39,822 bases of DNA, taken from positions 1 through 39,822 of IMG/VR virus record IMGVR_UViG_3300048930_001091, one strand, 5' to 3'. This stretch comes from a virus. This document shows positions 171-38,934 of this stretch, in pieces. How positions within the stretch are numbered: position 1 is the stretch's first letter; every line of letters starts with the position of its first letter. The notes below the pieces were generated by a model. That model was not told where the DNA came from, made no database searches, and saw only the letters and a list, made by a program, of their open reading frames with translations. The position numbers were made by a program, and so were the translations under genes.

Positions 171-1724
171 TCAGTTGTCGAGAGCGTTGACGCTGGCAGA
201 AAAGGATGCAGCGGCGAGCAGTCGAGCGGCTTCCTGGGGGGGCGCGGCCGTCATCCGTGCCATCAGGATTTCCCGGAGTTCCTTCCGGGACCGGGCGGCG
301 GAGGCCAACACGAACAGATCGGCCAGATCCAGGCCGACCGCCGGCCCGAAGTCGGCCGCGGTGCGGGCATCGATCAATTCGTTGGCGACACCACTGAGGG
401 TACCTCCGACTGTCGCGGCTGAAAATGGCACTCCGGGCCGGATCGGAGCGATTCCGAGGCCCGCAGGGGCGGCTGGCGCCGCCTTTCGGCGCAGTGGCAG
501 CCCGGTGCGCTCGGACAGCAGGCCGATCCCCTCGTCGTCGACCTCCAGACCGGCGGCTGTGATGGCGTCCAGGAGGCCCTGCGTGACGTCCGCGGAGTCG
601 GTAGCGCCCCAGATGATGCGTGGAGCCGCTCCAGGGAGGCCGTTGAAGCGCAGTATTTGCCGGAAAAGCTGCGTCCGAAGCGTATCGCCGAGCTTGAAGG
701 CGTCCCAGGCACGGTAATCGGCGCGGACCTGGCCTTGGAGGTTGGCGACGCCGGATCCGAGGCCGGTTGGGTCGGCCTGGGCGGAGAGGGTTTGGCCAAG
801 GATGGCCATGATCTTCTCGCGTTTGGCGGCCTCGTGAAAGTCGCTGAAGCTTTTGCCGCCGTCCGAGGTGCTGGCCTGCTGGATTTCGACCTCGGTTTCG
901 CGGGTGGCAACGATGCCGAAGAGCCGGGTGGCGTCGGAGAACGCGCGCTCCAGGCTGTAGCGGCTCTCCTGGTCGTTCGAATCGTAATAGCCGACGAAAA
1001 ACGGGCTGCCGAAGCGGTCCAGAAAGCGGGCCCACCAATCTCGGCCCATCGCGCCGAAAAGGAACCAGAAGACCAGGCTCCGCATGGGACCGCCCCAATG
1101 GTCCGGCGTGTTGAGAAGGTGCCCTCGATGGACGATGTAGCGGATGGGGTCTGGAGCGTGGGTTTGATCGGTGGGGTCGCCGTCGGTACCGGCACATTTG
1201 ATGCGGAGGACGCGGTCGCGATAGTCGAGCAGCTCCGGGGGGACCGGCCGCAGCCCGCTTAGCCTGTATCCGGATCCGGTGGCCGCGAATCGCTTTTCGA
1301 CCACGGCCACAGGCCACATGGAGGCGCTGAGGAGGTGGTTGCAGGCGTCAGTAAAGCCGTCGAAGTCCGCGAGCTGGCCTCGAATGAAGTCGGCGGCGAC
1401 GACGTCGTCGCGCACGCGCTTGTCGAAGGGGAGAACAGTCCAACTGTCATTCAGCACGGCGAGCTTGCGGGTCGCGATCGCGCTTTGGATCACATGATCG
1501 GCCAGCTCCATTTCGCGGTAGAGAGTGAAGAGCTCGGCGACCTCGCCTTGTTGGGCCGCGGCGATGATCGAGTGAATTCGGTCCACCGTGAGCTGGTTGG
1601 CGATCGGCTGGTGGAGGTACAGCGGGTTGAGCTGGCGTCGGAATTGCCGGGGAAGGCGTTCCTGCCAAACCCCCGACAGCGCGGTGACGAGGGAACCAAT
1701 GGCGGGCTTCAGAGATTCAAACAT
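171..1724 (-). CDS. portal protein, DUF935 / Mu gp29-like
   Basis: 517-residue portal-like protein, expected to form the dodecameric ring at the head vertex through which DNA is packaged and ejected. The N-terminal half has the family pattern of a 'LYREMELADHVIQSAIATRK' helix followed by a Trp-containing strand ('NDSWTVLPF'), as in the Mu gp29/DUF935 family, and the total length is close to Mu gp29. The reading frame is open further upstream, but ATG 1724 is chosen because it overlaps the last codons of the terminase nuclease gene by 8 bases and gives the usual N-terminus. The partner MuF-type head gene, normally next to the portal in Mu-like phages, lies 23 kb away on the other strand. Confidence 0.88.
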   Translation of the reverse strand: MFESLKPAIGSLVTALSGVWQERLPRQFRRQLNPLYLHQPIANQLTVDRIHSIIAAAQQGEVAELFTLYREMELADHVIQSAIATRKLAVLNDSWTVLPFDKRVRDDVVAADFIRGQLADFDGFTDACNHLLSASMWPVAVVEKRFAATGSGYRLSGLRPVPPELLDYRDRVLRIKCAGTDGDPTDQTHAPDPIRYIVHRGHLLNTPDHWGGPMRSLVFWFLFGAMGRDWWARFLDRFGSPFFVGYYDSNDQESRYSLERAFSDATRLFGIVATRETEVEIQQASTSDGGKSFSDFHEAAKREKIMAILGQTLSAQADPTGLGSGVANLQGQVRADYRAWDAFKLGDTLRTQLFRQILRFNGLPGAAPRIIWGATDSADVTQGLLDAITAAGLEVDDEGIGLLSERTGLPLRRKAAPAAPAGLGIAPIRPGVPFSAATVGGTLSGVANELIDARTAADFGPAVGLDLADLFVLASAARSRKELREILMARMTAAPPQEAARLLAAASFSASVNALDN

Positions 1725-2451
1725 GGGTGCGACGGGTGAAGGCTTTTTGAACGCGAGCAAGGATCGATTGGTAGGCCTGACTGTGGCCTGGTACCGGCGC
1801 AGTCGCGGCCGACGCGTAGCCGCCCACTGGCGCCGCTTCAGCGGATGCCCTCCCGGCGCGCCAGAGGGCGTGACGGGCCAGTTTGCCGCTGTCCCAGGTG
1901 TCCCCGTGGTTGCCGTCCTCATCGAGCGTGTTGAGGAACGTCCCCTTATCTCGCAGGACGCTCCGGCGGTCCTTTCGCAGCCATTCCTCTGGTGCGATCG
2001 CGATCAGGGCATCCTCGTACAGGGCGGCGTAGCCGGCGCCGAGGTACTGCTTCCAGTTCCCTTCACCGGCCAACGGGTAGCGCTTGGGATCGGGTTTCTC
2101 CGATGCGACGATGGCGTCGACCGGCGCGAAGACCGAAAACTCCTTCTGGATCCGCTCGCAAAAAAACCGCTCGTTCGTGCCGTCCAGGCAGATCCGGCGA
2201 ATCGGGCATCCCCTGGCCTTCAGGTCTTCCAGGATCGTTCGAAGCATCAGCCGAGAAACCGCCTCGCGATCGGTCCGAAATCGCACTGTGAGGCGTTCGA
2301 CCGTGCGGTAGCCGTCTCGCTGCGCAACGGTGATCGATGAGGGATTCGATTTTTTGCTGGTCGTCGTGGCCAGGTCGAAGCCCACCCCGACAGGGGCCTG
2401 CTCATCGAGCAGGTCGATCCAGTACCTGGGAATGACATCACGTGGGGTCAT
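1717..2451 (-). CDS. terminase large subunit, C-terminal nuclease half (Mu gp28-like)
   Basis: 244-residue protein that looks like the RNase H-fold nuclease domain of a Mu gp28-type large terminase, which cuts concatemeric or host-linked DNA during packaging. Acidic positions expected in the active site are in 'VGVGFDLATT' (about residues 22-31), 'ICLDGTNERFF' (about 87-97) and the C-terminal 'DTWDSGKLARHAL' segment. ATG 2451 overlaps the stop of the preceding 55-codon ORF in an ATGA arrangement; an upstream TTG at 2490 is possible but less likely. Together with the separate ATPase gene (314 residues) it adds up to about 558 residues, a normal full-length gp28-type terminase, so nothing obvious is missing. 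Confidence 0.8.
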   Translation of the reverse strand: MTPRDVIPRYWIDLLDEQAPVGVGFDLATTTSKKSNPSSITVAQRDGYRTVERLTVRFRTDREAVSRLMLRTILEDLKARGCPIRRICLDGTNERFFCERIQKEFSVFAPVDAIVASEKPDPKRYPLAGEGNWKQYLGAGYAALYEDALIAIAPEEWLRKDRRSVLRDKGTFLNTLDEDGNHGDTWDSGKLARHALWRAGRASAEAAPVGGYASAATAPVPGHSQAYQSILARVQKAFTRRTHV

Positions 2452-2615
2452 TTCGATTGGAAAACGACGGCGATGCACCAGAACAACCAACGAAATTCGA
2501 TCGCGTATCCATGTGCAGCCCTGCAGGTCTCATCCTCGCACTTTGCCAACGCAAAGACGAGGCATGGAAGAAGGTGGAGGGCGTCGTAGTCCTCGAATGA
2601 ATGGAACGAGATCAT
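2448..2615 (-). CDS. 55-residue ORF between the two terminase halves
   Basis: Small ORF wedged between the ATPase and nuclease halves of the large terminase. Its ATG (2615) shares one base with the ATPase stop (TGATG) and its stop overlaps the nuclease start (ATGA), so all three genes look translationally coupled. The product begins MISFHSFEDYDALHLLPCLV, has four cysteines and a hydrophobic C-terminal stretch rich in Trp, Phe and Val (about residues 41-52). I recognise no family. Codon use seems less GC-biased than in the neighbours. It could be a real small gene, a remnant of an inserted element such as an intron or homing-endonuclease scar, or merely a coupling bridge. Confidence 0.45.
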   Translation of the reverse strand: MISFHSFEDYDALHLLPCLVFALAKCEDETCRAAHGYAIEFRWLFWCIAVVFQSK

Positions 2616-3559
2616 CAGTTGAGGCCTTGCGGAAGGGAAATGGTGTCCGTGACGTTGATCGCAATACCCTGCCCAACCCCGGCTGCCATGGCGTGGCGGA
2701 TGTCGGTTTCAGAGATGGCTGCAGTACCGCCTTTGAGAAATGCGCAGCCGTAGTTGCGGTCCCAGGCCTGCTTGTCCCAGGCACGCGCGCGAGCCTCCTC
2801 GGGGGTAATCGGCTTCCGCGTGTCGGGATGGTACAACGGTATCCCCGCGGCGTGGAGGTCGTAGGCGTCCGCTCGATGACAGAGTACCCCAGCTGGGGAT
2901 CGGTAGAAGTTACCTGTAGGACTGACCTCGAAATCCTGGCCCACGGGCGGGCAGAGCAGCTCGTAGCTGTAGTGGGTGTCGTCAGGCGGCGGCGTAGTGG
3001 CGCCGCGGATCTCGAACTCAGCCGAACTGGAGACGAACGGCTCGGCTGCTTCGTAGACGGCCTGGAATTCGGGCATCCGCCCGACCTCATCCAGCACCAG
3101 CCAGCCGGTAAAGCCCACGGCAGTGTCGGGATTCGGGGCGATGGTCAACGAACGGCTGTAGTCGGTGCGGTTGTGCCAGATCCGCGCTTCCAGCTTCTGC
3201 TTTTCGAACAACTCGGCCACGTCGTCGATGCCGAGGTCATCGATCGTGCTGGTGAGTTTCAGACCGGCCCCCTCGATGGGCTTCCTCATCGCTGACAGCA
3301 CGTCCCGCCAGACCATGGCCTCCTTCAGGATGTTCTCCTGGCCGAGACGGAGGCTGGCCGACATGAAGATGACGCTCACCCCGGATTTCGACATCATCTT
3401 GTCGAGGGCCTGGATCGCTAGGGCGTAGGATTTGCCGCACTGGCGCCGCCAGATGTAGAACAGAATCCCGCTCTTGTGACGAAACACCCGCCGTTGAGGC
3501 GGGCGGAGCTGGACGATCGGTTCGCCCGCGGGCAGCACGAGTTTTTTCTTGGCGCTCAC
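2615..3559 (-). CDS. terminase large subunit, N-terminal ATPase half (Mu gp28-like)
   Basis: 314-residue packaging ATPase. A Walker A-like motif is visible as 'RRQCGKSYAL' (about residues 38-47) and a Walker B as 'LVLDEVGRM' (about 155-163), the layout of the Mu gp28/terminase-6 ATPase domain, which powers DNA translocation at the portal. The frame stops shortly after the ATPase domain; the nuclease domain is a separate gene 164 bases downstream. The start is GTG at 3559, overlapping the small-terminase stop in a GTGA arrangement. The split is directly seen; whether the two chains work as a complex or the split is a sequencing artefact cannot be told here, though the coupled ORF between argues against a simple indel. 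Confidence 0.85.
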   Translation of the reverse strand: MSAKKKLVLPAGEPIVQLRPPQRRVFRHKSGILFYIWRRQCGKSYALAIQALDKMMSKSGVSVIFMSASLRLGQENILKEAMVWRDVLSAMRKPIEGAGLKLTSTIDDLGIDDVAELFEKQKLEARIWHNRTDYSRSLTIAPNPDTAVGFTGWLVLDEVGRMPEFQAVYEAAEPFVSSSAEFEIRGATTPPPDDTHYSYELLCPPVGQDFEVSPTGNFYRSPAGVLCHRADAYDLHAAGIPLYHPDTRKPITPEEARARAWDKQAWDRNYGCAFLKGGTAAISETDIRHAMAAGVGQGIAINVTDTISLPQGLN

Positions 3560-4226: not shown

Positions 4227-6227
4227 TTAATGGGAAAGGATTTTCGCGCCCCTGCCTTTGAGTCGCCCTTTATTTTTCACAGAAGCTGCCTCCGTGAGAT
4301 TCGTGACACTGAATCCTGTAAAACTTGCCAAATTATTGCCGGTCGCGTCCTCAGTTCCTCCAGCGATGTAGTTTATCGTGATAGATTGCCCATTCTCAGC
4401 TGGGGGGGATGCGGTCATGGTGTACACCGCCCCGGCACCAGCTGCCGTAGACAACGTGCCGATAGAGATAGCGTAATCAGCAGGTGAGACGTTTACCACG
4501 CTTTCATTGAAGACGAACGTCACGTTGGCTCCATGGATAGTGACCGTCAGCAGGGTGGGCGGCGTTGTGTCAGGCGCCACCTCATCCCTCAATGGATGGG
4601 GGTAGGTATAGGGGGTGTACCCGACTGGTGCAGTAAGATAATAATCCCGGTTCTCCACAATAGAAAATCCTGCATTACCCCCTTTCGTGACCTCTATTGG
4701 CCCGCCGTTGTCCGTATTGTTCCAAACGTAAATCGGGTCAGTTCCTTGACTCAAGTTCTGGTGGTTTGACGGACTGCCTATAATCGGAGTTGTTTGACCG
4801 CGCCCAATTCCGTCCAGCACTCGGTCAACCTTGCGAATCTCATACGACTCCGTTCCGATGTATGTGACGGCACTTCCGTCTGTTGTGACGAGAGTCGTTA
4901 TCTCGTTCGCCGTATTGCCGGAAATTAAGCCTCCTTTACTGAGCACAAATCCGTTTCCAGCGGCGAATGTTGGCCGGTACACGGAGGAACTCAAGGTGAT
5001 TGTGTCGGCTGTATTGCTGGCCACGTAGCCCTTTGCATTCGTAGAGTTTTGCGTGATTTCCCATCCAGCCCAGCGATTCGGAGTCCAATCGGCACCTGTA
5101 ACTGTCAAAGTGCCGTACGCGCCCGATGTTGCAGTATTGGAATACTTCACCCTCAATGTATAACCCACCCACTCATCAGGAAGCCACGATTTTGAAGCGT
5201 CGGCCAATTTGCTATTAGCGGGAATACTTGTAGGGGTCCCTCCTTCAAATACCCCATCGCCCGCGCCGCCTGGTGTGCTCGGCCCATCAGTCAAGTCTGG
5301 TGTATCCCATAGCTTAGTTCCGTCCGCTCGCATAAATGGAATGAACCCCTGTGGATTCAGCCTGTAATTACTGAAAACCACATCATTGAGGTCCCTCCCG
5401 GTTATCTCGTTGTCGAAAATCAATGCAGTGCCGCCGCGCAAGTCAATATAAGCGTAAAGGGCTTTGTTGAGTGGGTTCTGAATCTTATTGCCGTAGATTT
5501 CCATTGCGCGCATGGATCGCAATCTTTGACTCGATTCGGTTCCATGGTTTGATATACGCGTCCCTTCAATCGTATTATGCCGAAAAACAACGCGTCCGCC
5601 CATCCATCCATCGAGGCACCCATAAACCTGAGTGTGCGTTGCGTAGCAGTCCTCAATAAATAGAAAGTATTCTGTACCCCAACGCACTGGAGACTCCCAC
5701 GCTTTATCCCCATAAGATCCTCCTTCCGCATTACCGTTCTGCGGCAGAACAATCCTCCCAGTTCCAGTCAGGTAAAACTCGCAGTTGTAGATTACTCCGT
5801 ATCCCGCCGCATAGAAAATCGTCTCGGGCATCAAATAGAATTTGCACCTCGCAACGCAACTCCTTGTCGATGCAAGGCCGATACTGGCGTTAAAATCTTG
5901 CGTCCCCGTGTCCCCCTGAAACTCGATATCCGTGAGATAAGTCGTGCCTGAGGCGTCGAAATTCAGCAATCGCCTCGATCCGCTGGTGATTCCATGTTTA
6001 ATGATCGTCTGCCCTATTCCAGCACCCTTCACCACAATCGCTTTGCTCACCGTGAGGCCCGACGTCCATACCGCAGTCCCGGCAGGAATCTGCAGGGTAT
6101 CACCCGGATCGCACAAAGCATATGCGGCCGCCACTTCGTCGCGGCTCACGCCTGTTGCGGTGCGCACGGCGGCGAAGGCGTCCCAAGTCAGCAACAAGAG
6201 CCCTGCGATGGTAGGAATGGGTTTCAT
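4227..6227 (-). CDS. secreted parallel beta-helix protein with C-terminal Ig/SwmB-like domain; tail spike candidate
   Basis: 666-residue protein. Residues 1-19 form a Sec signal peptide (Lys-2, hydrophobic core, AFA cleavage site). From about 25 to 300 the sequence has irregular repeats typical of right-handed parallel beta-helices (pectate-lyase fold), with short strand-turn units rich in Asn, Gly and aromatic residues. A C-terminal domain (about 560-645) starts near 'DTTPPTLLTVTIHG' and has the strand pattern of bacterial Ig-like/SwmB repeats. Such folds in phages are usually receptor-binding or polysaccharide-degrading spikes. The signal peptide is odd for a virion protein. The region is less GC-rich than its neighbours, which suggests transfer. 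It overlaps the preceding gene by ATGA. Confidence 0.75.
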   Translation of the reverse strand: MKPIPTIAGLLLLTWDAFAAVRTATGVSRDEVAAAYALCDPGDTLQIPAGTAVWTSGLTVSKAIVVKGAGIGQTIIKHGITSGSRRLLNFDASGTTYLTDIEFQGDTGTQDFNASIGLASTRSCVARCKFYLMPETIFYAAGYGVIYNCEFYLTGTGRIVLPQNGNAEGGSYGDKAWESPVRWGTEYFLFIEDCYATHTQVYGCLDGWMGGRVVFRHNTIEGTRISNHGTESSQRLRSMRAMEIYGNKIQNPLNKALYAYIDLRGGTALIFDNEITGRDLNDVVFSNYRLNPQGFIPFMRADGTKLWDTPDLTDGPSTPGGAGDGVFEGGTPTSIPANSKLADASKSWLPDEWVGYTLRVKYSNTATSGAYGTLTVTGADWTPNRWAGWEITQNSTNAKGYVASNTADTITLSSSVYRPTFAAGNGFVLSKGGLISGNTANEITTLVTTDGSAVTYIGTESYEIRKVDRVLDGIGRGQTTPIIGSPSNHQNLSQGTDPIYVWNNTDNGGPIEVTKGGNAGFSIVENRDYYLTAPVGYTPYTYPHPLRDEVAPDTTPPTLLTVTIHGANVTFVFNESVVNVSPADYAISIGTLSTAAGAGAVYTMTASPPAENGQSITINYIAGGTEDATGNNLASFTGFSVTNLTEAASVKNKGRLKGRGAKILSH

Positions 6228-7066
6228 GGTGCGGTAGTTGCGGTCAGTCCCCCGGTGACAGTTGAGAGCGTATGGCCATTTCCAGATGAATCCGTTTTCC
6301 AGTCTTCGCCTTGGCCGTTGCGGCTATAATAAAAGTCCGGAGCACTGCCTGTTGGAGTGCTTCCAGTGGCACCGATATCTGCTGGATTCGTACCGTTGTA
6401 GAATGAGGCCGGGATGTCGTGGTAGGTGTCGTAGAACAAAAGTTCCGCCAACGCTGCATTGAGCCTTAAACCAGCCGTATTGCCCGCCGATGATCCAACT
6501 GCATATCGCGGGTCTGAATCTGGCGCGAGGTCGATGTTGGTAGATGAATCTCGAACGCTAATGACGGCCTCCTGGCTACCGTTGACGTAAATCTTGCATT
6601 TCGCGGCGTCGGTCGTGTCCGCACAAATGAAGATGTGGCTCCATCCATCCCCATCCCATCCGGCGGAAGCGGCTGTGAAAGTTGATGTGGTCCCCATTTG
6701 CAGGCGATTTGTCCCGCCAAATGAGTTCCCTCGCACGTTAATCTTATTGTCGGTGTCCTTCCATACGTAGAGTTTGATAGCGGTCGTGCTGGAGATTTCC
6801 CAGATGTGCTTTGTCACGCCATCGGAGCCATCGAAGTTTATCCAGAAGGAGATGGTGAAGGTCTTGCCGTCAGCCACATTATTGGCGATTCCAGAGTAGC
6901 GGACCGCATCGTTCGCGCCGTCGAAAACCGCGGTGTACGCCGTAAAGCTCGGAGCACTCGGCGGCGACCCTCCAAGAAACACACTAAGAGGAATCGCCCG
7001 CAGTTGGGCGATCGGAGCCCAGCACCAGAGGCAGAGGATGAGGTAGACGAGAGATGGATGTTTCAT
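6224..7066 (-). CDS. secreted LamG/concanavalin A-like protein
   Basis: 280-residue protein with an N-terminal signal peptide (hydrophobic segment about residues 6-22, likely cleavage near residue 24). The body (about 45-215) has the LamG pattern 'FDGANDAVRY', 'FTISFWINFDGS', 'WSHIFICADTT' and 'KIYVNGSQEAV', a beta-sandwich that often binds glycans. It sits between two fibre-like genes, starting one base after the previous stop and overlapping the next start by ATGA, so the three are probably one translational unit. A carbohydrate-binding receptor-recognition role is plausible. AT content is higher than in surrounding phage genes. The signal peptide again implies export from the cytoplasm, which is unexpected for a tail component. 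Confidence 0.72.
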   Translation of the reverse strand: MKHPSLVYLILCLWCWAPIAQLRAIPLSVFLGGSPPSAPSFTAYTAVFDGANDAVRYSGIANNVADGKTFTISFWINFDGSDGVTKHIWEISSTTAIKLYVWKDTDNKINVRGNSFGGTNRLQMGTTSTFTAASAGWDGDGWSHIFICADTTDAAKCKIYVNGSQEAVISVRDSSTNIDLAPDSDPRYAVGSSAGNTAGLRLNAALAELLFYDTYHDIPASFYNGTNPADIGATGSTPTGSAPDFYYSRNGQGEDWKTDSSGNGHTLSTVTGGLTATTAP

Positions 7067-19861: not shown

Positions 19862-21010
19862 ATGAGCAACCGCATAAAACAAGCCCAGGCGACCGCGCGC
19901 CGCTCCGCCACCACCTTCCTCGAACACAGCGTGCCGAACGGCGATTTGGATCTGGATGACGCCCTGCTCGATGACGGCTCGACCCCACCGGTCGTAACGG
20001 ATGCCGAGGCGCTGCAGGCCGTGGCGCAACAGATCCGCAAGTACCAGCAGAGCCAGACGCCGCCGCTGAGCGATGCGAAACTCATCCAGAGGTTTCCCAG
20101 CCTCGGGTCGGCGAAGACGTTCCGGCGGATCCGGGAAGGCAAGGCTCAGGATCCTTCGACTGGCGGCCTTCTGGACATCGCTCAATGGCTGAACCGGTAC
20201 AAGGCCGTGATGGGTCAGATCCGGAAGAAGCAGTTGGGCAATGGCGCCGAGACAATCTATGCGGACTTTTCGAACGCGCTCCGCGTGCAGGCGGCCTTTG
20301 CCGACCTCTGGCGCTCCGAAGATCTGAGCTCGGTGGTGCTGGTGGAGGGAGCGAGCGGAAGCGGAAAGACGCAGGTGTTGAAACTCGTGGCGGCGTCCGG
20401 CGACGGCACGGTGTGTTGGACCGAGGCCACCGAGAGCTGGGAGAGCCTCTGCACGGCGCTGGGCGATCTGCTCCACGCCCTGGACGAATACGCGATCCCA
20501 AACAGCATGTCCCTGCGGCTGCAGCGCCTGACCGAAGTGTTGCGCGGCCAGGACCGGATCATCTTCATCGATGAGGGAGAGCAGATCACGCCACGGGTGT
20601 TGAACGTAATAAAAACCCTCGTGAATCGCACCAGCGTGAAATTCATGATCGGGGCGAACCCGACGCGCAAGTGGAGCCGATTGCTGGCGACCGAGGAGGG
20701 AAGCCAGATCCTGCACAACCGACTGTGCTGCCGGGTGATTCTTCCGGCCATGGATGCCGAGCATGTGGGCCTCTACATCCTCCGCCGCCTCGGCCTCTCG
20801 CTGGAAGGCCGGGAATGGGAGACCGCATTTGGCGCAGTGGCCGGGATCGCCCGCCACAACGGGCATGGCGCATTCCTCCGAAAGCTGGTGTCCCGCCTTC
20901 GCGCCGCCCTGGCGGAGGATCCGGACGCGCTGAGCAGCCCGCAATGCCTCAGCGACCACGCCGCCCTGGTCCGCAGCGGGGTCAAGGGCCGATCGGGCGC
21001 GGACGTCTAG
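19862..21010 (+). CDS. MuB-type transposition ATPase (AAA+)
   Basis: 382-residue ATPase. Walker A is GASGSGKT at residues 163-170, Walker B is 'IIFIDEGEQ' with D237 and E238, and 'VKFMIGANPTRKW' (about 260-272) probably carries the sensor position. The N-terminal 100 residues are helical with an HTH-like part ('SDAKLIQRFPSLGSAKTFRR'), as in MuB-like proteins that bind target DNA, deliver it to the transposase and protect phage DNA from self-insertion. It is preceded by a 49-base C/A-rich leader with no Shine-Dalgarno. Confidence 0.85.
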   Translation: MSNRIKQAQATARRSATTFLEHSVPNGDLDLDDALLDDGSTPPVVTDAEALQAVAQQIRKYQQSQTPPLSDAKLIQRFPSLGSAKTFRRIREGKAQDPSTGGLLDIAQWLNRYKAVMGQIRKKQLGNGAETIYADFSNALRVQAAFADLWRSEDLSSVVLVEGASGSGKTQVLKLVAASGDGTVCWTEATESWESLCTALGDLLHALDEYAIPNSMSLRLQRLTEVLRGQDRIIFIDEGEQITPRVLNVIKTLVNRTSVKFMIGANPTRKWSRLLATEEGSQILHNRLCCRVILPAMDAEHVGLYILRRLGLSLEGREWETAFGAVAGIARHNGHGAFLRKLVSRLRAALAEDPDALSSPQCLSDHAALVRSGVKGRSGADV

Positions 21011-25257: not shown

Positions 25258-26931
25258 ATGGCCGATTTCCTCTTCGATCCAGTACCTGCCGAGACGGCGA
25301 TCGCGTTTGTGAAGCGGCGCCTGCCGATGAAGCGGGCGACGTACGAAGGCCTGCTGCCGGAGCTGCAGGGTGCGGCGTTCACGGTGGCGGGGATAGAGCG
25401 GTTGGACGTACTGCAGCAGCTGCTCGACATGGTGGCTGAGGTGCCGGCCGGTGAGGACTTGGACCAGGTCAAGAAGCGGGTGAAGGAAATCCTGCTCGAC
25501 CACATCCGGCCGCCGCGTGATGGCGAGCCGACGCTCTTCGCGGACTTCACTGCGGAAGAGCTGGCCGAGCATGCGCGCAAGCTGGAGAACCGGGCGAAAT
25601 TCATCACGCGGTCGCTGACGACGAAGGCTTACGCGCATACCGCCTACGCGGACCTGCAGGCCGCGGGCGATGCGCTGCCGTACTGGCAGTACCTGACGGT
25701 CGGTGACGAACATGTGCGAGACACGCACCGTGCGCTCGACGGGGTGATCCTGCCGAAGGACGATCCGTTTTGGCAGAAGCACTTTCCGCCATGGGAGTTC
25801 GGCTGCCGCTGCCAGGTGGTGGGGGTGCCTGGACCCGAGGTGGAGGAGATGCGTGCGGCGGAGGCGGAGAAGCCCGACGAGGAGAAGCTGGTGCTCACGC
25901 CGGAGCAGATCGAGCGGCTGCACAATGAAAACCGGCTGTGGCGGGTGGTGGGCGGAAACAAGATGGACGCCATCCTCACGCCTCCGGATGAAAAGGGGAA
26001 GGGGCTGGCCTGGAAGTTCGACCCGGCCGATCTGCGGCCGGACATCGTCGAACTCAAGGCCCGGTACCGGCCGGAGGTCTGGAAGGCATGGGAAAAGTGG
26101 GCGAAGGCGACACCCGTCGACCCGCTGGGCAAGGACGCTCGCTCGGTCTGGGACTGGGCCTCGGCGAAGAAGCCGCGCTCACCGCGGAAGGCGAAGGCAG
26201 GGCTCCCGAAGCCGCGTGCCGCCAATCTTACGGAGGCGCTGGTGCGCGCCGGGATCTCGCGCACAGGGTTGGCCACCCTGGGCAAGATCCAAGCGTTGCG
26301 AGCGGCGCTGAAACACCAGAGCCCAACCACGATCGATGCCTCCATCCGGGGGGTGAAGGTGGAAGGCGGGCAATATGCGCGCTCGCTGGAGGCGAGCTGG
26401 AGAGCGCACGTGAACGACTTTCTGCAGTACGTGGATCCGGAACTGGTGAAAAACCTGCCTCCTCTGGACCTGGTGATAACAGCGAAGCTGAATGCGCTGG
26501 GCCAGTACAGCCCCACGGCCCGCAAAGTCACACTGAATGCGACCCACCTGGCTCCTGGACAGATGGCCCGGGATACAGTCTTTCACGAATTCACACACTG
26601 GCTGCACATGCACGCACCCGAACCGAAGAGGAAGGCGCTGGCGGCGTGGTTCGCCACCCAGACGGCCGGCCAGCGTGTCCAGCGTCTTCGCGATGGCGGG
26701 GACGGGATTCCCGACGATCTTCTCACCCCGGCCAGGGGCGACTATGCCGGGCGGATCTACCCCTTCGAAGGCGGGGCTCCGCAGGGGCTGGAAGTGCCCA
26801 CCACGCGGTTGGAGGTGCTCTCGCGTTCTGACGAGGAGCTGCTCGACCATTGGAACTTCATCTCCCCGACGACCGGCCGTTACGCCTGGCGCGAGTCATT
26901 CCTCGAAACCTTGAACCTGCTCTTCCCATGA
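25258..26931 (+). CDS. MuF-type head protein with C-terminal HExxH zincin-like domain
   Basis: 557 residues. The N-terminal part (about 1-190) is a Mu gpF/SPP1 gp7-like head morphogenesis protein: 'YWQYLTVGDEHVRDTHRALD', then 'PFWQKHFPPWEFGCRCQVV' with the conserved Cys pair. Such proteins are packaged in small numbers with the portal and can be ejected into the new host. After a linker, residues about 340-557 form an added domain with 'DTVFHEFTHWLHMH', a zincin HExxH motif (H443, E444, H447). MuF fusions to toxin domains are known as phage-encoded polymorphic toxins, so this is a candidate metalloprotease effector carried in the virion. No immunity gene is recognised next door. Confidence 0.8.
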   Translation: MADFLFDPVPAETAIAFVKRRLPMKRATYEGLLPELQGAAFTVAGIERLDVLQQLLDMVAEVPAGEDLDQVKKRVKEILLDHIRPPRDGEPTLFADFTAEELAEHARKLENRAKFITRSLTTKAYAHTAYADLQAAGDALPYWQYLTVGDEHVRDTHRALDGVILPKDDPFWQKHFPPWEFGCRCQVVGVPGPEVEEMRAAEAEKPDEEKLVLTPEQIERLHNENRLWRVVGGNKMDAILTPPDEKGKGLAWKFDPADLRPDIVELKARYRPEVWKAWEKWAKATPVDPLGKDARSVWDWASAKKPRSPRKAKAGLPKPRAANLTEALVRAGISRTGLATLGKIQALRAALKHQSPTTIDASIRGVKVEGGQYARSLEASWRAHVNDFLQYVDPELVKNLPPLDLVITAKLNALGQYSPTARKVTLNATHLAPGQMARDTVFHEFTHWLHMHAPEPKRKALAAWFATQTAGQRVQRLRDGGDGIPDDLLTPARGDYAGRIYPFEGGAPQGLEVPTTRLEVLSRSDEELLDHWNFISPTTGRYAWRESFLETLNLLFP

Positions 26932-27173
26932 GAACTCTGACCATCATCTTCCAATTCCCGGACGGCGCGGAAGCCCGGGCCGTGCACAGCGTGGATTTTC
27001 CCGGCCAGGAGGTGCTGGCCCAGTGGTCGGGGGCGACTGATCGCCTGCCGCCGGACCTGATCGCCAAGGCCCGCACTCAGGATGGCCTGGCCGCGCGCTG
27101 CTCGGCGGAAGCGCGGACGATCGGGATCGTCCTTTCGATCGAGGTTGAGGGCGGATACAAATTCGCAGACTGA
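26928..27173 (+). CDS. small protein after the MuF-zincin gene
   Basis: 81 residues beginning MRTLTIIFQFPDGAEARAVH, beta-rich N-terminus and a helical middle. It overlaps the MuF-zincin stop by ATGA and is thus tightly coupled to it. No family is recognised. Because of its place it could be an immunity or chaperone partner of the zincin, or a minor head protein. Confidence 0.5.
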   Translation: MRTLTIIFQFPDGAEARAVHSVDFPGQEVLAQWSGATDRLPPDLIAKARTQDGLAARCSAEARTIGIVLSIEVEGGYKFAD

Positions 27174-27175
27174 GT

Positions 27176-27604
27176 ATGGCTGACGGCTTCCAAATTCGCG
27201 TGACAAGCCGGGATGGAATATCGCCCAGGTTGAAGCGTGCAGCGGCGGCAGCGAAATCGCCGAAGCTCATGCACGCGATCGGGACCGGGCTGGTGGGGCA
27301 GACGAAGCGCGCCTTCAACCAGCCGGCGCTGAGGCCGGCGCCGTGGAAGGCAAAGAAGGACGGGAGCCCGGCCACGCTGAAGAGCCGCGAAGCCACGCTG
27401 TGGCGCTCGATCCGCGTGGTGAAGGCCGAGGCGAAGCGGGTGCGCATCGGAAGCGATCGGCCGTACGCAGCGATCCACCAGCTCGGGGGAAAATCGCGGC
27501 CGATGCCGGCGCGGCCGTACTTCCCATTTTACGCGAGTGGACAATTGACGCCCGGCGGAGCAAAGTTGGTGGGGCAGGTGATCGAGACGGTGCTGAAGTT
27601 GTAG
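27176..27604 (+). CDS. phage virion morphogenesis protein (Mu gpG-like)
   Basis: 142 residues with the family pattern: 'KLMHAIGTGLVGQTKRAFNQ', 'LRPAPWKAKKDGSPATLKSR', 'TLWRSIRVVKAEAKRVRIGS' and 'RPYAAIHQLGGKSRPMPARP' with Tyr/His/Gly positions typical of the virion morphogenesis (gpG/tail completion) family. Members act in head-tail joining or head assembly. It follows the preceding small gene by 2 bases. Confidence 0.8.
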   Translation: MADGFQIRVTSRDGISPRLKRAAAAAKSPKLMHAIGTGLVGQTKRAFNQPALRPAPWKAKKDGSPATLKSREATLWRSIRVVKAEAKRVRIGSDRPYAAIHQLGGKSRPMPARPYFPFYASGQLTPGGAKLVGQVIETVLKL

Positions 27605-27670
27605 ACTCCCCCTGCGGCCTCGGGCTCCCATTAAACGGAACGAAGAAATTCCGTGGTCTACTGGCGGCCG

Positions 27671-28936
27671 ATGTCCACCCCGGCCACGAAGACCAGAACC
27701 CGACCCACCTCAGCCGCCGCGCCACCCGAGCCGGCTGCTATCTGCTTCGGGCCGCGGGTGGCATTTTCTGCTTCGGCCGGTGCTGGCAATGATGCGCTGC
27801 CTCAACGCATCCTGATCGCCAAGTGGGGTGAGAATGCCGGCCGAACCAGTGGCGCGAAACTCAAGGTGAACGAGGTCACGGCCGCGGCGCTGCCTCGGGT
27901 GATGGATCGTCTGGGCCTGGACTTGGTCCCGCTCGACTTCGAGCATCAGAGCCACAAAGGGCATGCGAACTATGTGCCGCCGCCGCAGCTCGATGTGGCT
28001 GGTCACGGCACCGTGGAGGTGGTGGCGGGTGAGGGCATTTATTTCAACGTCCGCAGCTACACGCCGGTCGGCCAGGCGAAGGCGGTCAATTACCCGGATG
28101 TCTCGGGAGTCTTCATTCCGGACGCCGAGGGAAACGTGCTCGCCGTCTCAAGCGTGGCGCTGACCTTGCAAGGCGACATCCAGGGTGCCCACTTCAGCCA
28201 GGCCCAGGCATTCTCAGCCTGGCTGGCGCTGCATACCGGTCAGCCGGCCGCCGCGATCACCATGGACGAGACGCTCATGGGTCAGCTGCGAGAGCTGCTC
28301 GACCTGAGCGATGATTCATCGGCCAAGGACGTCAGCGAGGCGCTGGAGGAGGTCCTGGCTGCGCAGCGCAAACCGGTCGCTCCGAAGCCGGATGGAAAAG
28401 CCGTGAAGGAGGCCAGCGAAGTCAACGAGTCCGCCGCGCCGGAAACCAAAGATCCCACAACCCAACCTGATACCGCCATGTCGAAAGAGACCACGCCCGC
28501 TCCCGCCGCTGCCCCTGCTTCGGGCGGCTCCCTGGAACAGAAGATCGATAAGGTCATCGATCTGCTGAGCAGCCAGCACACCGCCGCCCAAGCGGCCAGC
28601 GCCACCGCCGCCCACAACACCGCCGTGGATGCCGTCTTTGCCAGTGCCACGCAGGCCGGCAAAGTGATTCCAGCTGGGCTGAAGCGAAAGGACGACAAGG
28701 GCCAATACGTTTTCGCCGCCGCCGATGTGGAAGAGGTACTGAAGGAACTGCCCGGCGGCCAGGTGCCGACGGAACACCGGACGCCGGAAACGGTCATGGC
28801 CGGGGTTTCCGCGACGGCCAGCCAGCCCGCAGAGGACTTCGTGCGCGTGTCCCTCGGAATCGATCCGGACGCCTGGAAGAAGGGAGGCATCCCATGCTCC
28901 GCGGCCCGGACGTCGGAAAAGGCCGTCGTGGCCTGA
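27671..28936 (+). CDS. prohead protease and scaffold (Mu gpI-like)
   Basis: 421-residue protein combining an N-terminal Mu gpI-type protease with a scaffold region. The protease part has 'LDLVPLDFEHQSHKG' (D89, E91, H92), then 'NYPDVSGVFIPDAEGNVLAV' and 'SSVALTLQ', the usual gpI landmarks. The C-terminal half is Ala/Glu/Thr-rich and helical, as expected for a scaffold removed during maturation. ATG 27671 is preferred to a GTG at 27653. An in-frame ATG at 28478 with favourable position may start a separate scaffold (gpZ-like). Confidence 0.78.
   Translation: MSTPATKTRTRPTSAAAPPEPAAICFGPRVAFSASAGAGNDALPQRILIAKWGENAGRTSGAKLKVNEVTAAALPRVMDRLGLDLVPLDFEHQSHKGHANYVPPPQLDVAGHGTVEVVAGEGIYFNVRSYTPVGQAKAVNYPDVSGVFIPDAEGNVLAVSSVALTLQGDIQGAHFSQAQAFSAWLALHTGQPAAAITMDETLMGQLRELLDLSDDSSAKDVSEALEEVLAAQRKPVAPKPDGKAVKEASEVNESAAPETKDPTTQPDTAMSKETTPAPAAAPASGGSLEQKIDKVIDLLSSQHTAAQAASATAAHNTAVDAVFASATQAGKVIPAGLKRKDDKGQYVFAAADVEEVLKELPGGQVPTEHRTPETVMAGVSATASQPAEDFVRVSLGIDPDAWKKGGIPCSAARTSEKAVVA
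28478..28936 (+). CDS. possible internally initiated scaffold protein
   Basis: In-frame ATG at residue 270 of the protease/scaffold gene would give a 152-residue helical protein beginning MSKETTPAPAAAPASGGSLE. The preceding bases (ACAACCCAACCTGATACCGCC) are C/A-rich like the leaders of free-standing genes here. Mu and lambda both make scaffold from internal starts in the protease gene, so this is plausible but not proved. Confidence 0.4.
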   Translation: MSKETTPAPAAAPASGGSLEQKIDKVIDLLSSQHTAAQAASATAAHNTAVDAVFASATQAGKVIPAGLKRKDDKGQYVFAAADVEEVLKELPGGQVPTEHRTPETVMAGVSATASQPAEDFVRVSLGIDPDAWKKGGIPCSAARTSEKAVVA

Positions 28937-28973
28937 ATCATCCAAACCACCCACCCAATAACACGATCATACC

Positions 28974-29408
28974 ATGCCCAGCACAGCTGAATTCAGCCCA
29001 CTCCAACGCGGAGCTTCGTTCATCGAATTCGCGGTCCCGGTAAAGACCGGAGTCAAGATCTACGCCGGCACGCTGGTCGGGGTGGATGCGTCAGGTTATC
29101 TGGTACCGGCGAGCGCCGCGACCACCAAGGCACGCGCCGTCGCCCAGGAAACTGTCGACAACGTGGCGGGCGCCAGCGGCGCCAAATCCGCGCTCGTCCG
29201 GACGGAGGGTTTCTGGCGGGTGCTCAACTCGACCGCCAACCCCGCGCTCATCACTCATGTGGGCGCGACCCTCAAAATCGCCACCGGGCTGGATGAAACG
29301 GTGACCTTCTCCGGATCGGGCGCGGCCAGCGCGATCGACGCCGGTGTGCTCGCCCAACTCGAAGTCGATGCCGGGGTCTCCTACTGCTGGATCAAGATCA
29401 CCTGGTAA
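28974..29408 (+). CDS. head decoration-like protein
   Basis: 144 residues, Ala/Gly/Thr-rich beta protein beginning MPSTAEFSPLQRGASFIEFA, with 'AGTLVGVDASGYLVPASAAT' as in DUF2190-type capsid decoration proteins: a phage cement that stabilises the shell. It lies directly before the major capsid gene, where decoration genes are usual, and has a 37-base C/A-rich leader. Confidence 0.65.
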   Translation: MPSTAEFSPLQRGASFIEFAVPVKTGVKIYAGTLVGVDASGYLVPASAATTKARAVAQETVDNVAGASGAKSALVRTEGFWRVLNSTANPALITHVGATLKIATGLDETVTFSGSGAASAIDAGVLAQLEVDAGVSYCWIKITW

Positions 29409-29453
29409 TCCGCCCCGAATCACCCTCGCAACACTTCACACCTCACTTTTCCC

Positions 29454-30365
29454 ATGATCGTCAACAAAGGCAACGTCGAAGCCATCTTCAAGGGCTACTC
29501 CATTCTCTTCGCCCAGGAATACCAAGGCGGCGGGGATCCGCTCTGGCCACAAATCGCCAAGAAGGTCACCAGTACCTCGATCGCCGAGGAACACGACTTC
29601 CTGAACTCCTTCCCGAAGATGCGGGAGCTGCTCGGCCAGGCTGTGGTACAGAATCTGCGCGCCTCGAAATTCATCATCACCAACCGGGAATGGGAGAGCA
29701 CCATCGAACTACCGGAACGGGACGTCCGCACCGACCGGATGGGCCTGTACGCGCCCCGCGCTGAAATGATGGGCCGCTCGGCGCGTCAACACCCCGACGA
29801 ACTGATCGCTCAACTGCTCAAGGACGGCTTCACCACCGGCCTGGACTACACGGGTACGGCCTTCTTCTCCGCGAACAAGGCGAGCTACCCGGGTGCGACG
29901 ACGTTCACGAACTTCGGCACAGGCCAACTCAGCGTGGCCCGATTCGAGACTGCCCGTGCCAACCTGAAGGGTCGCCTGAACGACGTCGGCCAGCCGCTCG
30001 GGCTCGGTCAGGATCTGGTGCTGGTGGTGTCGCCCAAGTGGGAGGCCATGGCGCGCAAGATCGTGGTGGCCGAAACCGTCAACGGCGGGGAAACCAACGT
30101 CAACAAGGGCACCGCTCGCGTGGTGGTGTGGCCGCAACTGGGCGCACAGGGAATGGAGGACTACTGGTTCCTGATGGAGGCGGGCTGGCCGGTGAAGCCG
30201 TTCGTCTTCCAGGAGGAGCAGGCTCCGGCCTACAACCAGGTGACCGATCCGAGCGACAGCTTCGTGGTGCTGAACCACAAGTTCCTCTTCCAGGTCTACG
30301 CCTCCTACAACGCCGGGTACCAACTGCCACAGCTGATCTGGGGTTCCAACGGCACCGTCGCCTGA
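29454..30365 (+). CDS. major capsid protein (Mu gpT-like)
   Basis: 303 residues of the Mu gpT type. 'FKGYSILFAQEYQGGGDPLW' near the N-terminus, 'PKMRELLGQAVVQNLRASKF' and the Trp/Tyr-containing segment 'EDYWFLMEAGWPVKPFVFQE' are the gpT landmarks. It forms the icosahedral shell (HK97-like fold) and is followed by a strong hairpin at 30377-30429. The 45-base leader (29409-29453) is C/A/T-rich with very few G and no Shine-Dalgarno. Confidence 0.88.
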   Translation: MIVNKGNVEAIFKGYSILFAQEYQGGGDPLWPQIAKKVTSTSIAEEHDFLNSFPKMRELLGQAVVQNLRASKFIITNREWESTIELPERDVRTDRMGLYAPRAEMMGRSARQHPDELIAQLLKDGFTTGLDYTGTAFFSANKASYPGATTFTNFGTGQLSVARFETARANLKGRLNDVGQPLGLGQDLVLVVSPKWEAMARKIVVAETVNGGETNVNKGTARVVVWPQLGAQGMEDYWFLMEAGWPVKPFVFQEEQAPAYNQVTDPSDSFVVLNHKFLFQVYASYNAGYQLPQLIWGSNGTVA

Positions 30366-37857: not shown

Positions 37858-38934
37858 ATGAAACTCCACGAGGCTTTCGAGGCCGTGTTCATCATCACGT
37901 TGAAGCATCGGCCTGACCGGCGCGTCAGGGTTTGGGACCACGTCGTGCAAGAGTCGGGGTTGTGGGCCAAGGGGGCGAAGCCGATCATCGTCCATGGCGT
38001 GTCAGGCGACGCGATTCCTCCGCCGAAGTGGTGGGGGGCTGGCAATGGGGCATGGGGGTGCTTGCTCAGTCACAGCAGGGTCATAGAGCAGGCGCTACAT
38101 GAGGGCTTCAAAAACTGGCTGGTGCTGGAGGACGATGTTGTTTTCCACCCGCGGGCAGCCGCGCATTTCGAAGCGGTCATGTCGACTCTGCCGAGCGATT
38201 GGGGCCAGCTCTACTTGGGGGGGCAACACCTCCGCGAACCAGTCCACCACAGCGAGCTGATTTTCCGAGGGGCGAACGTCAACCGCACCCACGCCTTCGC
38301 AATGACCCGTCGGGTAGCAGCGAAGGTGCACGCCCACATCTGGCATGCTCCGGACTACATCGACCGTAAGGGGTGGCACATCGACCATCAGCTGGGTTTG
38401 GCTCACGAGCGGCGCGACTGGCCGGTCTACTGCCCCAAATGGTGGCTGGCGGGTCAGGAAGGGGGCAGCTCGAACATCAGCGGCCGTCAGGACCTGCCGC
38501 GCCAGTTCTGGCAGCCGGCCGCCTATGCTCGGCAGTTGCCGTTTTTCTGGGGGCAGCCTACATCGGCTACCCAGGAGGAAGGGCTGCATTGGGGCAACCA
38601 CCACCGGATGGATGTCGCCTGGTCGGACATCGGCCTGAACGACGCGGTCGGCAACCCCGAGCGGCTGGCGCGATGGCTGGAACTCATCGCCACCGAGGCC
38701 ATCAGCATGGGCCGCCTGCCGGCCGCCTGGCACGAGTGTCTGGGCCTGGCAGATCTGAGGCCCCTGTGGCCCGCGCGGGTGTACCCCATCGATCACTACA
38801 ATCCGGGTTTGCTGGACTACCCGTGGAACGGCCTGTTCCATCACCCCTACGCAGCCTTGCGGCCCACCACGGCCGCAGCCCGGCCTGCAGTAGGCCTGGG
38901 CACGGCCGCGACGGCCGCCGCCGCTGTAGGCTGA
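37858..38934 (+). CDS. GT25-family glycosyltransferase
   Basis: 358-residue enzyme of the LPS-type GT25 family. 'AVFIITLKHRPDRRVRVWDH' at the N-terminus, 'GAWGCLLSHSRVIEQALHEG' (about residues 61-80), the acidic 'LVLEDDVVF' (E91, D92, D93), 'GQLYLGGQHL' and 'AFAMTRRVAAKVHAHI' are typical GT25 motifs; such enzymes transfer galactose or glucose to lipooligosaccharide or protein (collagen-type) acceptors. The C-terminal 30 residues are Ala/Pro-rich and lie in the region that overlaps the convergent methyltransferase gene. Next to tail-tip genes, it might decorate a virion protein or modify the host surface to exclude other phages. Confidence 0.8.
   Translation: MKLHEAFEAVFIITLKHRPDRRVRVWDHVVQESGLWAKGAKPIIVHGVSGDAIPPPKWWGAGNGAWGCLLSHSRVIEQALHEGFKNWLVLEDDVVFHPRAAAHFEAVMSTLPSDWGQLYLGGQHLREPVHHSELIFRGANVNRTHAFAMTRRVAAKVHAHIWHAPDYIDRKGWHIDHQLGLAHERRDWPVYCPKWWLAGQEGGSSNISGRQDLPRQFWQPAAYARQLPFFWGQPTSATQEEGLHWGNHHRMDVAWSDIGLNDAVGNPERLARWLELIATEAISMGRLPAAWHECLGLADLRPLWPARVYPIDHYNPGLLDYPWNGLFHHPYAALRPTTAAARPAVGLGTAATAAAAVG

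Follow-up and report, generated by a model that had tools for sequence, protein, structure and literature searches.

A predicted zincin tip and a co-inherited small gene mark a MuF head protein of a Mu-like phage record as a probable polymorphic toxin

Does a phage head protein that ends in a metalloprotease-like motif carry a weapon, and what would the small gene coupled to it then do? The question is raised by an uncultured virus record (IMG/VR IMGVR_UViG_3300048930_001091; its 39,822 nt, analyzed in full, are called the window below), in which an intact open reading frame with an ATG start on the plus strand (25258..26931) encodes a 557-residue protein with a MuF head part and an additional C-terminal domain. 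MuF toxins have long been proposed to be loaded into the phage head and injected, and to our knowledge head loading and injection have hardly been shown. An earlier note, made from the letters of the window, had proposed that the protein is a protease carried in the virion, and we followed that proposal through family scans, structure prediction and a comparison of related loci (given here by L numbers).

The first part of the protein is a MuF carrier. Residues 64-187 (25447..25818, plus strand) match the Phage_Mu_F domain (PF04233, E 2.9e-17, above the curated cut-off), and the 557-residue protein matches the minor capsid protein model TIGR01641 in an NCBIfam scan (E 1.1e-15) and PHROG 220, "minor head protein and DNA pilot" (E 4e-40). 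In an alignment with eight relatives, the similarity of the carrier spans about residues 1-300, at 28-40% identity. A match of residues 303-442 to NF009588 (indolepyruvate oxidoreductase, E 6e-6) was rejected, as it covers 140 of about 1200 model positions and scores 24 against a cut-off of 952.

The C-terminal part gives no Pfam match at E ≤ 10 and no accepted family in the Pfam, PHROGs or NCBIfam scans; PHROG 33618, of unknown function, is weak for the window protein (E 0.12) and clearer for its relatives (E 1e-8). Within this part, the motif HEFTH (residues 443-447; 26584..26598, plus strand) would supply two zinc-ligand His residues and the catalytic Glu. An HExxH arises in 2.6% of shuffles of the MuF protein, so the motif alone is weak evidence. 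An alignment of 16 sequences, with identity to the window's domain down to 20%, shows H443, E444, H447, G498 and E512 to be invariant. The predicted third zinc ligand is E512 (26791..26793, plus strand), which lies within GLEVPTTRLEVLS, aligns with TEILSMGLE of the cyanophage relatives and is also invariant in all six sequences of a smaller alignment. E519 was considered for this position, but it varies (Gln in L070, L071 and L072) and was rejected on that ground.

AlphaFold2, run on residues 327-557 (26236..26928, plus strand) with the 16-sequence alignment, returned a model with a pLDDT of 90.4 and a pTM of 0.89; the single-sequence prediction of the full MuF protein reached a pLDDT of 37. 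In the domain model, HEFTH lies within helix 109-125, and E512 (model residue 186) opens helix 186-196. The closest solved structures are zincins throughout, in a structural search that does not rule out folds absent from its match list. The best match is the protease domain of lethal factor (Z 9.5-10.1, rmsd 3.0-3.3, 154-160 residues aligned), the top one having a Z of 10.1 over 158 residues and covering model residues 32-231; PPEP-1 and PPEP-3 follow at Z 8.0-8.2, and M1 aminopeptidases and Certhrax at about 7. Foldseek ranked lethal factor (5e-3) and Wss1 (1e-2) first, with modest E-values. In a set of predicted viral structures, a 364-residue protein, G9BWI3, matches best (E 1.8e-7), and several proteins annotated "Phage head morphogenesis domain" come next. 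A phmmer search against the PDB gave no match, and the domain profile reached only sub-threshold IrrE, jannalysin and Wss1 entries there, the best of PprI/IrrE type at E 0.3, and no lethal-factor or PPEP chain.

With high confidence, the model thus gives residues 327-557 a zincin fold with a complete HExxH plus Glu ligand set. The domain resembles the lethal-factor/PPEP group in fold; membership in that group has no ground in sequence and is not claimed, because sequence homology to it was undetected, and a fold match at a Z of 10 speaks for the fold and not for the substrate. Lethal factor, PPEP-1 and PPEP-3 share with the window's zincin the common fold and the HExxH-plus-Glu arrangement, at 13-16% identity over the structural alignment, and their delivery, host and partner gene are unrelated to the window's. 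The earlier note had seen a MuF signature in the first 190 residues and HEFTH at 443-447 of an extra, zincin-like C-terminal domain, and had said beforehand that a model with no zincin fold, or a missing third zinc ligand, would speak against its proposal. Both features are where it placed them, the fold matches are to zincins and an invariant third ligand is present.

How widely this domain occurs became apparent only with profiles. Single-sequence scans of viral contigs with the full-length protein and with the domain found no true relative (L001, a polyvalent-type HExxH protein, was rejected as one), and a nucleotide search of phages with the window sequence found no match. A tblastn search gave a distant match (26% over 129 aa, E 1e-3) to ORF081R of the Planktothrix phage PaV-LD (YP_004957354.1), a zincin homologue with the same ligands, in which no MuF domain was found, and which has a different N-terminus and is annotated as a virion structural protein. 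Profiles seeded with ORF081R and its kin led to L013, L022, L023 and L014; L063/L070 and L064/L069 came from a genome search, and L071-L077 were reached with a second profile. Several of these relatives derive from metagenome bins. The zincin sits on at least ten head proteins (window, L013, L022, L070, L071, L072, L073, L075, L076 and L077; L074 is a fragment), and the reading frame is intact in at least ten independent MuF-zincin fusions. The weak genome matches G140, G023, G197 and G087 were rejected as relatives, L065 being SprT-like and L085 and L086 lacking a toxin context.

Related carriers end in different tips. Verrucomicrobiota prophage head proteins that share 33-40% identity with the window's in their first 300 residues bear an ADP-ribosyltransferase in L025 (ADPrib_exo_Tox, PF03496, E 4e-18), a PI3/PI4-kinase-like domain in L027 (E 2.6e-7) and a different HExxH protein in L029, and the 291-residue MuF protein of L026 has no tip; in the same group, the long C-terminal parts of the MuF proteins at L024:5956-9156 (1066 aa) and L028:5830-9369 (1179 aa) match no Pfam family. 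The near-identical C-termini that the earlier note had named as evidence against its proposal were not seen, and the variable C-termini that it had suggested looking for were. The change of tip is sharpest in phages of Akkermansia. Over residues 1-342, the L071 carrier shares 93% identity with the head protein of the Akkermansia muciniphila phage Chantilly and 87% with that of phage Chambord; there the match ends, and those two continue into a different zincin of HEIGHYVD type. Between the sister Akkermansia prophages L071 and L072, the DNA around the MuF gene is mostly 97-100% identical, with a few bins at 91-95%; identity is 85-86% at 4500-4799, 52-75% over 4800-5700, which holds the zincin and the start of the small gene, 80-81% over 5700-5999, and 99% from 6000 on. 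Behind the HEIGHYVD tip of Chantilly (L078) and Chambord (L079) only an ORF of 37-42 aa is annotated, so that an immunity gene for this tip may be dispensable or lie elsewhere.

The zincin and its carrier do not share one history. The window's zincin is most like those of L071 and L072 (33%, E 1e-38 to 1e-40) and L073 (33%, E 1e-33), the carriers of which BLAST does not relate to that of the window (E values of 0.02 or worse); the window's carrier is closest to the one of L013 (38%). In the zincin tree, the window groups with the zincins on Akkermansia carriers and with the orphan L014 (support 97/96), and the AU test rejects a single clade made up of the six zincins that window-type carriers bear (p 1.1e-5). 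The tree has long branches, and these six may form an ancestral grade; as the tree and carriers are read here, it is safe to say that the zincin cassette has changed carrier at least twice. If the zincins on window-type carriers are ancestral, exchange would have occurred only about twice, which counts against wide exchange. In Verrucomicrobiota phages the zincin occurs on three or more types of carrier, two of which the Pfam MuF model misses. The cassette also occurs outside head proteins. In L069, from a Verrucomicrobiota-phylum genome, a 1505-residue non-MuF protein has at its end a zincin of a third type (HEIVH) and is followed by an orphan cassette with the same linker (a 138-nt repeat, 96%) and a HEIGHH zincin; last comes an orphan cassette with a window-type zincin, and there is a small ORF behind each cassette. 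Repeated linkers on orphan cassettes are a characteristic sign of polymorphic toxins (PMC3482391). The locus comparisons show the zincin and its small gene as a cassette exchanged among head-protein carriers and with cell-encoded polymorphic toxins, the sharing of a toxin pool resting on one case, L069, an assembled draft genome in which the locus is partly masked. The 1505-residue protein itself has no accepted Pfam hit; with its two orphan cassettes (L069:10141-17761, minus strand, G191:C19) it resembles a class of Verrucomicrobiota polymorphic toxins whose delivery part is of an unfamiliar kind.

The small gene of the window (26928..27173, plus strand) encodes 81 residues, and its start overlaps the MuF stop in ATGA. 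Homologues lie directly behind the same zincin in L013, L075 and L077, on the window-type carrier, and also in L076 and L073, behind the same zincin on an unrelated carrier. L070 and L022 have ORFs of like size and place that are weakly similar to the 81-residue protein, and the 78-residue ORF behind the zincin of L071 and L072 is unrelated to this family; the small-gene family is thus not universal behind this zincin, which counts against a toxin-immunity reading. When an HMM of the family was run over the 12,802 ORFs of all loci, among them about 29 MuF loci with other C-termini, it matched only directly behind this zincin; for its own members the model is circular, and the absence elsewhere is the informative part. 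A search of 388 Verrucomicrobiota-phylum genomes gave no convincing copy of the family, and in L026, the MuF protein of which lacks a toxin tip, no small ORF separates MuF from the gpG frame behind it. From its position, its co-inheritance with the zincin and its absence without this zincin, we infer that the 81-residue protein is probably an immunity protein, cognate to the zincin. The earlier note had offered it as a possible partner; the co-inheritance agrees with that, and a generic partner fits less well than an immunity protein. The 244-residue neighbor gene of L014 was considered as a relative of the small ORFs and rejected, the similarity not being significant. We note that the 78-residue ORFs (L071:5560-5796 and L072:5519-5755) have an identical C-terminal end (ELYFRKHPEMRGKIFLE) and a divergent N-terminal half, a pattern consistent with recombination within the small gene. 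In L022, a 236-residue ORF (5729-6439), kinase-like by eye and with no Pfam hit, lies between the small ORF and the gpG-like gene.

Judged by its genes, the window is probably a transposable, Mu-like phage record, because it encodes a transposition protein (19862-21010, PHROG 296, E 1.1e-12) and a Mu-type portal (171-1922, minus strand, PF06074, E 1.2e-55), which together suggest a transposable temperate phage. Loci related to the window's lie in bacterial contigs, and the assignment of this uncultured virus to a Verrucomicrobiota host rests on the nearest relatives of its carrier. Behind the small gene, on the plus strand, come a gpG-like neck protein (27176-27604, PHROG 26), a head maturation protease (27653-28936, PHROG 328, E 2e-15) and the major head protein (29454-30365, PHROG 371), with a decoration-like protein between the last two. 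The portal and the large terminase subunit (2615-3559, minus strand, PHROG 2) together occupy 171-3559 and are separated by over 20 kb from the genes for MuF and the capsid (25258-30365), an arrangement that is unusual for a Mu-like phage. Two minus-strand genes, 4227-6227 (Ig-like, PF19078) and 6224-7066 (laminin-G/concanavalin-like, PF13385), have no PHROG match and possibly encode surface-binding tail proteins, and a family 25 glycosyltransferase (37858-38934, PF01755) perhaps modifies the host surface.

Taken together, the exchangeable tips, as compared in sequence, and the modeled fold make it likely, in our judgment, that the protein is a MuF polymorphic toxin with a lethal-factor/PPEP-like zincin tip, which would be injected and against which the 81-residue protein would act as immunity. 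The tip would belong to a new zincin subfamily whose bearers are mainly phages of Verrucomicrobiota. By analogy with SPP1 gp7, the first ~300 residues would serve as a minor head protein that reaches the interior of the procapsid by way of the portal. In SPP1 the portal protein pulls gp7 into the procapsid; heads can assemble without gp7, but it raises infectivity, and toxin-bearing gp7-like proteins have been proposed to exploit this route (PMC6316719). Coupling of the portal to MuF is an assumption here, because the portal gene of the window is not adjacent to MuF. The last ~230 residues are predicted to form a zinc-dependent endopeptidase that uses H443, E444, H447 and E512. Together with the DNA or ahead of it, a few copies would pass into the recipient cell, and the injected protease would cleave one or a few cytoplasmic proteins; the cleavage may harm non-lysogens or tip the infection in the phage's favor, and the immunity protein would shield the producing cell and lysogens. 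A bolder version, which we hold only tentatively, would make the tip a lethal-factor/PPEP-like substrate-specific endopeptidase with one defined bacterial target, injected from the capsid and encoded in a toxin-immunity cassette that roams among unrelated head proteins and cell toxins of Verrucomicrobiota, including gut Akkermansia.

An injected protease could also be a host-takeover or lysogeny effector, which cleaves a defined host defense or regulatory protein with mild effect and which the small protein only silences before delivery. The main text of Jamet et al. proposes an effector role for peptidase-domain MuF proteins (PMC5576092), and the nearest solved folds, lethal factor and PPEP-1/-3, belong to substrate-specific endopeptidases. 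The fast replacement of the tip by ADP-ribosyltransferases and kinase-like domains argues for antagonism with immunity and not for one conserved host target, and the orphan cassettes beside a polymorphic toxin likewise point to antagonism with immunity; we give the effector a low probability. Were the zincin a protease of head assembly, which cuts head proteins to size or releases either itself or the MuF part, it would not be a toxin, and such a role has its parallels: zincins of polyvalent phage proteins have been proposed to process their own polypeptides (PMC5512222), and the distant PaV-LD homologue carries a structural annotation. However, the window already encodes a separate head maturation protease, and the zincin is not needed for assembly, because carriers of the same type lack it or replace it with an ADP-ribosyltransferase or kinase-like tip. 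It is also found outside MuF proteins and in orphan cassettes, and the co-inherited small gene would be left unexplained. A head-processing role is therefore unlikely, an outside chance in our estimate. That the C-terminal region is an inert or decayed passenger, inactive and retained by chance, is highly improbable given four active-site residues that are invariant down to about 20% identity and a frame that is intact in at least ten independent fusions.

The preferred reading, a MuF toxin with a zincin tip and a cognate immunity protein, has known counterparts. The main text of Jamet et al. 2017 (PMC5576092) describes MuF toxins with an N-terminal MuF domain, an exchangeable C-terminal enzyme and a small ORF behind, as in the window; it reports a metallopeptidase domain in 20% of 191 MuF toxins and an ORF under 150 aa behind 89.4% of the toxin genes. 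Their toxins are chiefly from Firmicutes, and that main text names neither Verrucomicrobiota nor Akkermansia. Two MuF toxins, Bxa (PMC11699363) and Apk2 (PMC12226406), poison the cells that make them, and small proteins encoded next to them neutralize the effect. Both Bxa, from Bacteroides with an ADP-ribosyltransferase, and Apk2, with a (p)ppApp synthetase, have the window's layout of carrier, tip and adjacent immunity gene; they act by ADP-ribosylation and alarmone synthesis, and neither is a protease, unlike the predicted tip of the window. In the paper library that was searched, we found no test of a MuF metallopeptidase. The zincin-like metallopeptidases of polyvalent proteins (PMC5512222; PF18818) are likewise zincins in phage-delivered multidomain proteins, sometimes with MuF, whereas the window has a single zincin tip and a coupled small gene, and PF18818 matches the window's relatives only below threshold (E 0.06-0.14).

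MuF polymorphic toxins, metallopeptidase-bearing ones included, are thus already known (PMC5576092), as are zincins in polyvalent proteins (PMC5512222). As far as the searched libraries show, what is new is a zincin subfamily that has no Pfam or NCBIfam model, although the families of Jamet et al. were compared by their main text and may overlap with it, and, on the loci compared, its presence on three or more types of carrier in Verrucomicrobiota phages, the small partner family and the swaps in Akkermansia phages. The finding adds Verrucomicrobiota to the range of MuF polymorphic toxins, with a protease family for which those two libraries have no model, and suggests that the prophages of a common gut bacterium carry exchangeable weapons. 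The Akkermansia phages amount to a natural experiment, with near-identical head proteins, different protease tips and matching small genes, and this set makes head loading, delivery and immunity directly testable. A second zincin-small-gene pair was observed in proteobacterial MuF proteins (L039:6001-7829 and L040:3622-5643), which carry a related zincin (HEYSHRLQ/HEYVHHLQ) and small ORFs of their own (109 and 133 aa).
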